DNA of 64,000 nt from Aldrovandia affinis (lineage: Eukaryota; Chordata; Actinopteri; Notacanthiformes; Halosauridae): assembly GCA_029706075.1 (NCBI GenBank), contig JAINUG010000174.1, forward strand, positions 1-64,000. Reading direction: 5' to 3'. A model generated the notes under the pieces. That model saw nothing but the letters and a program-made list of their open reading frames with translations, made no database searches and was not told the origin of the DNA. Numbering within the stretch: the first letter of the stretch is position 1; each line of letters starts with the position of its first letter. The translations under genes were made by a program, and so were the position numbers. This document shows, one piece after another, positions 17,214 to 24,804 of this stretch.

Positions 17214-17545
17214 CACTGCAAAAAAGGAATTTCAAGAAAGTAAAAAAGCCTTGTTTCTGGGAAATTAGTCTTATTTTTTGTCTAAAAGAAAATTAATCTT
17301 GTCAAGCATGTTTTGCCTTAGAAAAGTGATCTTATTTTAAGAAAATATATCCAACTTTTTCTTAATTAGACATTCAGCTAATATTGAGCTAGATTTAACC
17401 AATAACAAGCTACCACAATGGTTTGGATGATATCCCAGCAGAGGAACAATATTTTTTTTCCTTGTTTTAAGAGTAAGACCATTTGCACAACTTCTTAATT
17501 TAAGAATTTCATGAAATGACACCAAATTAAGTTTGTTCATCTATT
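17214..17545. repeat. Left subterminal region with repeated CTTRTTTTAAG-like motifs
   Basis: After the CACTGCAAAAA end, the words CTTATTTTAAG (17330), CTTGTTTTAAG (17461) and CTTAATTTAAG (17494) recur. They resemble motifs in the right-end array and suggest transposase-binding subterminal repeats. Confidence 0.45.
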
Positions 17546-17759
17546 TTTATTAAAGATGTGTGGCTATCACAGTAGTGGAAACATTATGTTGACAGAAAAC
17601 AGAACCTGCCGCTTCACATTTCATCAATCAATCAACATTCCATATTATTACTATTAAGAGAATTGTAGTCTTGTAACAGCAAAATACAAATGACTGTGCT
17701 GAACAACAACTGCACACAATGGAAAAATACAGTTTAACATGACCCTTAACACAGCAAAT

Positions 17760-17870
17760 GACAGACAGACAGACAGACAGACAGACAGACAGACAGACAG
17801 ACAGACACACACACACACACACACACACACACACACACACACACACACACACACACACACACACACACAG
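17760..17870. repeat. Compound (GACA)n(CA)n microsatellite
   Basis: About 12 GACA units followed directly by about 32 CA units. Minus-strand frames across it encode only CV and SVCL repeats and are not genes. Confidence 0.95.
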
Positions 17871-18097
17871 GCGGATAGCAGAAAGTCAGTTCAGGTCCTC
17901 TAAAGAGGCCTATTAAGCAACTGATGAACTGTTTTAACATTTTTTTTTTAGATTTAGGTTATTTTCTCTGCATGATGATAGAAAATCATGCATGAGCCAT
18001 TAACACTCATGTATCAGCTCTTGTCGGCCAATGATTAACAAGAAATTGCAACGCAAAAGTGTCAAAAACACAGCTATATCTATAAACAATATTTAAA

Positions 18098-19062
18098 TCA
18101 CAGTTTGTCCACCAAAAGGCACCATGTGAAAGTGAACCTTTTACAATACATCAGATGACGCTTGTGTAGTCCAATCACATCACCCAGGTAATATTTCATA
18201 GGGACATATTCCATATCCTTGTGAGTAAAACTGTAATATGGAGTGAAATCTACAAGGTTATCGGCAGATATCAGTTCAGTTGCTTGTGCCATGTTTGGGA
18301 TTTCTATTTTATATGCCATGTAATCTCTATCATAACAAATAGTATTGTGCTGCTGGAACTCAAAGCAATATAATGATGAATTTATTACATAGATATTTCT
18401 TACCAGTCCAAATTCAGGCAAATTATTAGAATTAACAGCACTCACAAGTAATGACTTCTCCCGAATATATTTGTTTCCATTTAGATTAATCCATTTAACA
18501 GATACTGCATTATTTACTTCATCATTTCCAAGGAAGGCCCTCATTTTTCTTTTAAGTATGACATGTTGCTTATTTCTGATGTTGGTCCCAAATTACACTC
18601 ATTTGCAAAAATAGGGTGTTCAGAACTACTTGCATTCTGACAACATTCATACATTTGATTATGCCTTATCAAAGACTTGCAAACATTTTTAAAATTAATT
18701 TTTAAGGCCCATTGTTTAAAAAAGCAATGTTTTGATTCGAATCTCATGCACATGTGACGGACCATTGGTCCCAGTAGTTTAATCTGGGATGGAGCATGAA
18801 TCAAATAGTGTTGTTTGGGAGTGATGTTGTTATCTGGGAAAAGGTTCTTCATATGGTTTAAATGCTGTTCAATGAGTGTTTTCAATTTGTCAATAGTCTG
18901 TAGACCAATAACAGGAGCAAACAAAATTTGAACAATCTCTACAAGTTCAAGAATGATTGTGTAGATGACAGAGGGGTGGTCATTCTGTTTCGCAACAGCA
19001 GGAATAACCAGCCATGTATTATCACATACACGCGACTTATTATAAACTATTGTGTAATTCAA
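18098..19062 (-). pseudogene. CACTA-type transposase-related remnant with a frame break
   Basis: Two minus-strand frames are joined at 18541-18548: 19062-18541 (173 codons) and 18544-18098 (148 codons). One base missing from the five-base T run at 18544-18548 would explain the stop (AAAATGA on the coding strand). The first frame contains HYLIHAPSQIKLLGPMVRHM followed by RFESKHCFFKQ. This is the pattern of a large family of uncharacterised fish proteins and recalls the DUF4218-like segment next to plant TNP2 transposases. The second frame resembles its usual C-terminal extension. The N-terminal transposase core is absent, so the copy is truncated. It faces the SAMD3-like gene across 218 bp. 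Function is not known; transposon origin is an inference. Confidence 0.6.
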
Positions 19063-19280
19063 TAATGTTATTTATAGAAATTAATTTGGGCAAATGCAGA
19101 AATAAACGTATTACGATCAGCCACTCCCCCCCTCCTCCCTGGAAGAGATGGTACGATCCAAATGTGTCTACGCAGTTTACCCTACCGCCAAAACGACCAG
19201 CCGTTGCATTTGAAATGCACACACATGCCGCTGTGACTATTCTGTAGTAGTTTGTGGACGTCAGTGAAGACAAATTATGG
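19063..19280. promoter_or_regulatory. Shared intergenic region of a head-to-head gene pair
   Basis: 218 bp separate the minus-strand frame start and the plus-strand ATG at 19281. A bidirectional promoter is the natural inference. No TATA box is clear. Confidence 0.35.
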
Positions 19281-23556: not shown

Positions 23557-23624
23557 GTGAGAGTGAGTGAGTGAGTGAGTGAGTGAGTGAGTGAGTGAGT
23601 GAGTGAGTGAGAGTGAGTGAGTGA
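23549..23624 (+). repeat. (GAGT)n microsatellite overlapping the stop codon
   Basis: The GAGTGAGTGA run starts at the final Glu and stop codons of the SAMD3-like gene (GAG TGA) and continues for about 70 bp. Confidence 0.9.
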
Positions 23625-23760
23625 ATCTCTTTTCTTTCTGTTCTCCTTTGTGACAAAAATCTGTTTCAGTTAGTCTTGCCACATGTTTATTGGTGTTATT
23701 TCTAAAAAATATATATTGTTCCTCTGGGATATTTTGCAATTTTGTGTTTTTATTTTCTAA

Positions 23761-24075
23761 TAGGGCCGCAACTAACGATTATTTTCATTATCCATCAATC
23801 TGTTGATTATTTTCTCGATTAATCGGTTAGTTCTTTAAAAGGTCAGAAACATTTTCAGTTATTGTTTCCCAAAGCACAAGATGCAATTTAAAATGTCTTG
23901 TCTTTTCTCGACCAACAATCCACATCCCAAAGATACTGTATGCAGTTTACTTTCATAGAAGACTGAAGGAACTAGGACCAGGAACCATGTTCATGTAGAG
24001 TTATAATGCAGTCTGCCGATGGAGAAAGTGGTTGAATGTTGTCAAATGCTTTGCAGCAGTTGGGATTTTGTCTTA
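23761..24075 (+). repeat. hAT-like nonautonomous interspersed repeat
   Basis: Starts AGGGCCGCAACTAACGATTA, followed by TTTTCTCGATTAATCGGTTA, the well-known head of an abundant vertebrate repeat. It continues with TTGTTTCCCAAAGCACAAGA. The right boundary is approximate. Confidence 0.7.
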
Positions 24076-24109
24076 ATAAAAAAAAGAAGCTAAAAATAAG
24101 AATGCCTCT

Positions 24110-24545
24110 GGTGCCTTAATTTAAGACAATGTCACTTATTTTTACTATGCTGTTTGAAGAAATTGTGTCTTATTGTAAGATTTTTTTGCTAATTATTAAT
24201 CTTGATTTAAGGTATACATTCTTAAAGTCAGCTCAATTAAGAGACCAATGTATCTAGTTTGAAGAAATTGTGACTTATTGTAAGCTTTTCTGGCTAATTA
24301 TTAATCTTGATTTAAGGTATAAATTCTTAAAGTCAGCTCAATTAAGAGACCAATGTATCTAGTTTGAAGAAATTGTGACTTATTGTAAGCTTTTCTGGCT
24401 AATTATTAATCTTGATTTAAGGTATAAATTCTTAAAGTCAGCTCAATTAAGACCAATGTATCTTGTTTGAAGAAATTGTGTCTTATTGTAAGCTTTTTTG
24501 GTAATTATTTATCTTATATTAAGGTATAAATGCTTAAAGGCAGCT
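24110..24545. repeat. 105-bp tandem array near the right end of the CACTA-like element
   Basis: GTTTGAAGAAATTGTG recurs at 24152, 24257, 24362 and 24465 (spacing 105, 105, 103). Each unit contains CTTATTGTAAG, CTTGATTTAAGGTAT and GTCAGCTCAATTAAGA. Copies 2 and 3 are nearly identical. Confidence 0.9.
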
Positions 24546-24804
24546 CAAACAAGAGAAAAAAATACTAATTTTAAGTTAATCTATCTTAAATGACTAACTT
24601 TGTATTGCTTGTTATAAGCACAACTTACTTAAATTTGGTCTCTCAGTGGCTAGATTTATGTCCTAGTTTTAAGAATTCTAGTCAAGCAAAATTGGCTTAC
24701 CCCATTGGCAGATTTTTTTGCTTGATATAAGACAATTTGATTAGATTTAAGAATATTTGGCTTATTTCTAGTGGGGGTGTTTTTGCAGTGTACTCTATCT
24801 AATA

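Follow-up and report, generated by a model that had tools for sequence, protein, structure and literature searches.

The stretch studied here (64,000 nucleotides of Aldrovandia affinis, contig JAINUG010000174.1; called the window below) raises the question of whether a transposase-like frame and an intron-rich gene, lying head to head between two inverted ends at 17214 and 24790, form one mobile unit, and whether the second gene is a working part of it. An earlier note, made from the letters alone, had proposed a CACTA-type unit with a transposase remnant and a second gene, for which SAMD3-like is a putative label. Our reading, to which we give a probability of about 0.85, is that the unit is a non-autonomous EnSpm/CACTA copy whose full-length form has two genes, and that the second of these is a proposed accessory factor. 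The unit comprises 7577 bp (17214-24790) between TA-flanked ends. Based on its CACTG termini, 2-bp target duplications, DUF4218 domain and subterminal repeats, the element is an EnSpm/CACTA transposon.

All genome searches were made in the window's own assembly (1.22 Gb, 2576 contigs). With the first 987 bp of the unit as query, the left end is found in 42 rows at no fewer than 40 loci, the window included (the best 40 of 57 candidates were scored). We took the 20 best-scoring other copies, a sample which therefore leans toward complete copies; a longer relative, L036, was added later. All 20 fetched copies have the CACTGCAAAAA ends and some part of each of the two genes, and their flanks differ. 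The right end was reached within the first stretch in 18 of them, and those of L019 and L022 were found in further stretches. The boundary of the element is seen in the flanks, which vary from copy to copy, and in the whole-copy alignments to L036, which start no more than a few bases from the first C. A 2-bp target duplication is found in 19 of the 21 elements including the window: TA in 9, CA in 5, TG in 3 and TT in 2 (19 elements were scored by script, L019 and L022 by eye); L015 and L016 have none. The duplication is thus 2 bp long, but it is TA in only some of the elements. Empty sites are also found. For L018 and L020 a local paralogue spans the junction, with mismatches beside it in the case of L018, and a local paralogue across the L026 junction extends only 13 bp on one side. 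The joined 120-bp flank of L025 (C2466) matches a dispersed repeat, 8 of 40 rows covering the full 120 bp (best 40 of 432 candidates), and its filled site is recovered as two halves, 1-61 and 59-120, reflecting the 2-bp duplication. The copies are young, because they differ from each other by only 0.2-0.55% substitutions. The segment 17214-24790 is one mobile unit, one of dozens of nearly identical copies, and other loci with both ends and parts of both genes exist as had been predicted.

Concerning the ends themselves, TACACTGCAAAAA occupies 17212-17224, and its inverse stands without mismatch at 24780-24792. There are two exact occurrences of the 11-mer CACTGCAAAAA in the 64 kb (chance mean 0.14; 1 of 100 shuffles gave two or more), while the 13-mer TACACTGCAAAAA, searched with 2 mismatches, is not enriched in the window (4 found, 4.01 expected). 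The word CTTRWTTTAAG is present three times in the left 347 bp, four times in the right 711 bp and once elsewhere in the 64 kb; the subterminal repeats are these words, seven of eight of which sit in the two ends, plus a 105-bp tandem repeat. The words are indeed present at both ends, but three of the four on the right lie inside the tandem repeat and are not independent. The length of the 105-bp repeat (24152-24556) and of a TGAG microsatellite (23550-23624) seems to vary among the near-identical copies L009-L028.

The minus-strand frame with HYLIHAPSQIKLLGP matches Pfam DUF4218 (PF13960; E 4.4e-8, 33.4 bits, cut-off 27), a domain also found in L036 (30.9 bits, cut-off 27). Open transposase frames of 532 (L019) and 734 (L036) amino acids both continue into the DUF4218 part of the window, and CRQC is visible in the L036 frame. 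A zinc-finger-like exon is located at L036 5780-6145, near the start of the second gene; its best Pfam match is zf-Di19 (E 0.003, below the cut-off), and the distant transposase L035 contains a zf-C2H2 match barely above the cut-off (25.7 bits vs 25.2). Transposase_21 has no Pfam match in the L019 and L036 cores and is under the cut-off in L034 (E 0.011), which belongs to a distant clade; the transposases of L034 and the window family share 34% identity (E 1.3e-64) and are homologous. One 4.3-kb deletion has the same junction in the window and in 16 of the 20 fetched copies, which points to a single event that was then amplified. L014 is a 17th copy with this junction, with extra DNA beside it, whereas L019, L022 and L026 have a different deletion (L036 5424-6343). 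About 900 bp have no counterpart in these three copies; an insertion in the window family was considered for them and dropped, since L036 has most of this DNA. The minus-strand frame of the window is a transposase remnant in its DUF4218 part; above ~18972 it is, from the comparison with L036, DNA joined by the deletion and not transposase.

The second gene is found beside the transposase elsewhere in the genome. A protein query with its exon 3 gave 82 matches from 90 candidates, which were merged to 58 loci (24 second-piece rows dropped); the query with the window-family transposase gave 85 rows, all of which were used (the best 81 of 337 candidates were scored). Of the 58 exon-3 loci, at least 51 have a transposase match inside 25 kb; 48 of these pairs are divergent and 3 share a strand, with distances mostly of 2.2-2.7 kb, and for 7 loci there is no transposase within 25 kb among the matches listed. 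Exon 3 is also present within 14 kb of 38 of the 40 left ends. Four sister loci show the linkage too; at the fourth, C1951:234187, an exon-8 match (67%) is located 4.9 kb off and divergent, as judged by eye. The second gene is not incidental to the element, and its proposed membership in the transposon, as well as its linkage at other loci, is borne out.

The same pairing is seen in the distant clade in another order. Here the transposases are 31-34% identical to that of the window family, and second-gene-like exons lie upstream of the L034 transposase on the same strand. Searching with the last exon of L034 yielded 60 matches (67 candidates), which represent 56 loci once 4 duplicate rows are removed, and the L034 transposase gave 140 rows (best 136 of 216 candidates); 109 rows at ~97 loci were entered, and the 31 left out are 29 further pieces of entered loci and 2 rows from a window-type and a sister locus. 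At least 51 of the 56 distant-type loci have a transposase directly downstream on the same strand (49 within 1 kb, the others at 1.8 and 10.8 kb), against a chance expectation of ~0.4% calculated from the ~97 transposase loci; only 17 of the 56 are linked when scored with the smaller, window-family transposase list. The two types of second gene do not mix between transposase clades: 48 of 49 transposase rows with 80% identity or more have the window type nearby and none has the distant type, and of the 24 rows below 40% identity, 17 have the distant type nearby and none the window type. Five distant-type loci (C2233:3020211, C2056:3763565, C336:2884012, C1480:957857 and C2289:3180748) have no transposase inside 25 kb among the matches listed; each may be a deletion derivative or a domesticated host gene. 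A look at the 1.9 kb downstream of one copy did not reveal where the distant-clade element ends. A repeat array of the form TAACACTATACAGTGTAATATTTACAC, apparently a nested element, is located downstream of a distant-clade transposase (L041 1-1000).

Between subfamilies of the distant clade, codon positions 1, 2 and 3 differ by 0.24-0.31, 0.21-0.28 and 0.53-0.59 for the last exon, 0.37-0.48, 0.19-0.28 and 0.56-0.72 for another exon of the second gene, and 0.26-0.34, 0.18-0.26 and 0.54-0.70 for the transposase; between the window and a sister, exon 3 gives 0.32, 0.24 and 0.57. The third position differs most in all seven second-gene comparisons (1.25-3.0 fold) and in all three transposase comparisons, which argues that the second gene evolves as a protein between families, like the transposase.

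Based on these patterns, the full-length form consists of a transposase gene, whose first exon is zinc-finger-like and whose tail is DUF4218, and an intron-rich second gene a few hundred bases off in the opposite direction; the two genes may share a promoter region at 18966..19280. The window copy lost 4.3 kb (the transposase core and first exon) and kept the second gene, and this deletion form spread, presumably mobilised in trans by transposase that longer copies made. The second protein may act as an accessory factor, most likely by binding the subterminal repeats as plant TNPA does, or by countering silencing; by analogy with other systems, we lean slightly toward an accessory role of one kind or the other. 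Carriage by the transposon probably explains the high number of copies of the second gene in the genome.

Several results weigh against this reading. In the sister tier (46-65% transposase identity) only 3 of 12 rows have exon 3 inside 25 kb, at 2.2, 17 and 19 kb and all divergent; one of the nine rows without it is a piece of a distant-clade transposase. The sister loci L032 and L033 have no second gene in the 5.5-5.9 kb upstream, where L033 has a retrotransposon insert. Six distant transposase loci (7 rows: C1869:437359, C2289:4375440, C1624:755194, C1812:716682, C202:2231956 and C1951:190716), with open frames of 547-902 amino acids, have no detected partner, and may belong to another clade with no second gene or with a different one. 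Among the young copies, pairwise substitutions are 0.35% in the exons, 0.32% in the introns and 0.22% in the dead transposase piece, and gaps are 6.4%, 3.1% and 0.2%, respectively; the exons are no better conserved than introns or dead piece, so there is no sign of selection on the deletion form to retain the second gene. To these is added the low hhalign probability (3.2%) for the weak similarity of the window-type second gene to that of the distant clade.

That similarity has to be weighed against chance. With tblastn the two second genes are not joined at E 0.01 or better; the best match is 33% over 39 residues (E 0.03) and is in the wrong place. With hhalign, the window protein plus one sister exon aligns with three distant-clade proteins over 211 collinear columns (score 26.1, E 0.014), while the best of 20 shuffles scores 18.9 and the reversed protein 16.2. 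The window protein alone scores 23.6, a value reached by 1 of 200 shuffles (24.4), and five other proteins score 11.3-15.4. Three splice junctions are at matching places. The donors are GT in phase 0 in 11 of 11 checked (L039 was omitted at the first junction); the acceptors, read by eye, fit phase 0 at all three junctions in the window and L039, at the first two in L034 and at the last two in L040. Some fitting acceptors are one codon inside the searched peptide, and the first of L040 and the last of L034 are not clean. Unrelated genes, captured independently and alike by chance, would agree with the tblastn failure, the modest hhalign E value and probability and the single shuffle that reached the window score; the collinear match, the shared phase-0 junctions, not all with clean acceptors, and the low scores of the control and reversed proteins make this improbable. 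The comparisons make homology between the two second genes quite likely, and we go no higher because of the low hhalign probability and the unclean L034 and L040 acceptors.

As for the other explanations, CACTG ends are probably common on short fish elements, and the two ends of the window could belong to separate ones placed together by chance; both ends occur in order with different flanks in all 20 copies, and empty sites exist, so this is refuted. A host gene captured by the EnSpm lineage and carried as passive cargo, of no help to the element, would fit window-type copies that are very young and whose second gene has no extra conservation, and also the frame-changing exon indels among the 20 copies. 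The linkage recurs at sister loci of 53-72% identity, however, the probable homologue is linked in the distant clade with another gene order, and the codon-position pattern between families is like that of the transposase; passive cargo is therefore as unlikely, in our estimate, as unrelated second genes. In maize Spm, fusion or splice variants come from one long transcript. The distant-clade second gene might likewise be the 5' part of a long transposase transcript, since in L034, L039 and L040 its last exon and the zinc-finger transposase frame are on one strand, and the exon ends within ~10 bases of where that frame starts, or overlaps this start. But the last exon of L034 closes with a stop ahead of that frame, and the genes are divergent in the window clade, which leaves this explanation slightly less likely still than passive cargo.

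Chapaev elements (CMC group) have a 4-bp target duplication; membership in this group was considered for the unit and rejected, since its duplication is 2 bp. Plant En/Spm elements have deletion derivatives, subterminal repeats and TNPA. The unit resembles plant En/Spm in having a transposase and a second protein, and in plant CACTA elements, according to PMC4158355, the second protein supports excision and transposition. Plant CACTA duplications are 3 bp, against 2 bp here, and the fish second gene, unlike that of plant CACTA, has no Pfam match above cut-off and lies head to head (window clade) or in tandem upstream (distant clade). Among animal EnSpm/CACTA elements, the likeness to the TRC group of SmTRC1 is a CACTA-type transposase; in the passages of PMC1636069 consulted, a 2-bp duplication is given for 7 of 14 copies and a zebrafish relative is listed, but the terminal inverted repeats start with CCC instead of CACTG and no second gene is described. 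Two further sources provide models of an extra gene: fungal DNA transposons, including EnSpm, carry a TET/JBP gene proposed to counter silencing (PMC12730594), and VANDAL elements encode VANC proteins that counter it (PMC10398659). The fungal elements are alike in being CACTA-type transposons with an extra gene, which is a dioxygenase there; they and VANC, a functional model from a plant host, are set beside the fish protein by description.

Genes annotated as SAMD3-like are very numerous in fish. The SAM (sterile alpha motif) domain has no Pfam match in exons 2-8 of the second gene, and SAM_1 was not found within 25 kb of the 114 second-gene loci (58 + 56) among 108 matches from the best 150 of 180 candidates. 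In a pufferfish bacterial artificial chromosome, a gene 'similar to sterile alpha motif domain containing 3' is listed beside a zinc finger protein (PMC2996927); this neighbourhood is only suggestive of a link to SAMD3. The two-gene system may be undescribed: among the papers listed on SAMD3 or the sterile alpha motif with transposons, on EnSpm with CACTA or DUF4218, on SAMD3 gene-family expansion and on a second EnSpm protein, none was recognised as describing the pairing; Repbase and Dfam were outside this scope. It is a tentative idea, and rather doubtful as a whole, that a large share of animal EnSpm transposases have in the second gene an ancient partner, which co-evolves with them, has persisted through a change in gene order and has an accessory or anti-silencing role, that the fish SAMD3-like genes are such genes, and that vertebrate SAMD3 is their source or domesticate. 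If it were true, a large and puzzling fish gene family would consist of transposon genes and be removed from studies of gene-family expansion, and the two-protein CACTA system of plants would have its match in animals; if vertebrate SAMD3 were related, it would be a candidate case of domestication. The young deletion form, beside copies with long open transposase frames, is natural material on the role of a second transposon protein in a vertebrate.

The coordinates of the unit are presented in Table 1. Eight plus-strand exons of the second gene were placed from 19281 to 23556, the ATG of the first lying ~210 bp away from where the minus-strand frame ends, and the divergent gene described earlier stands, with exons 3-8 recurring in copies. 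The window copy is probably not coding, because exon 6 reaches a stop and exon 8 shifts frame. The window length is kept in 17 of 19 full-span copies for exon 3, 15 of 19 for exon 4, 17 of 19 for exon 5, 3 of 19 for exon 6, 19 of 20 for exon 7, 2 of 13 for exon 8 and 11 of 19 for the transposase remnant; indels shared among copies are not independent, and these counts support no conclusion. Exons 2-8 have no Pfam match above any cut-off, and the Med31 (E 0.002) and Olduvai matches on exon 8 were rejected as both are below theirs. A PDB sequence search with exon 5 gave no match, and no relative was found in viral contigs, which were scanned with exon 3, the DUF4218 frame and the right-end 18-mer. 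Single-sequence structure models (mean predicted local distance difference test, pLDDT, of 59 for exon 3, helical where ordered, and 35 for the DUF4218 piece) are too poor for fold comparison.

Table 1. Features of the transposon unit in the window
Feature	Position	Strand	Basis or remark
Left target duplication copy (TA)	17212..17213		Window reading and copy comparison
Left terminal inverted repeat CACTGCAAAAA	17214..17224	+	11-mer and 13-mer counts; flank differences in 20 copies; L036 alignment starts
Left subterminal region, CTTRWTTTAAG words	17214..17560		Word count
Transposase C-terminal part, same frame as DUF4218 in L036	18098..18592	-	Frame list; L036 comparison
Transposase remnant with DUF4218 (HYLIHAPSQIKLLGP)	18541..18972	-	PF13960; 99% identical to residues 390-532 of L019 exon
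4.3-kb internal deletion junction	18963..18965		L036 1913-6245 gone (transposase core and zinc-finger-like exon)
Remaining intergenic region between the two genes	18966..19280		Aligns to L036 from 6246 on
Second gene exon 1 (coding part, 12 codons)	19281..19316	+	Read from the window; too short for copy test
Second gene exon 2	20609..20731	+	Most copies match second half only; absent in L019, L022, L026
Second gene exon 3	21223..21594	+	Recurs in copies
Second gene exon 4	21685..21907	+	Recurs in copies
Second gene exon 5	22139..22362	+	Recurs in copies
Second gene exon 6	22527..22673	+	Stop at 22665; one base shorter than in 15/19 full-span copies
Second gene exon 7	22774..22883	+	Recurs in copies
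Second gene exon 8	23249..23556	+	Frame change near 23290 in window copy
105-bp tandem repeat, 3.9 copies, right subterminal region	24152..24556		Repeat scan
Right terminal inverted repeat	24780..24790	-	End-word counts; copy comparison
Right target duplication copy (TA)	24791..24792		Window reading and copy comparison

The intron before exon 3 contains a 124-bp inverted repeat (20757-21057; 79% complementary, 53-nt loop), which is a small hairpin element nested inside the transposon. Outside the unit, two similar open frames are located ~6.5 kb apart at 4396-4968 and 10865-11434; they resemble a tandem pair of genes like endonuclease-domain-containing-1.

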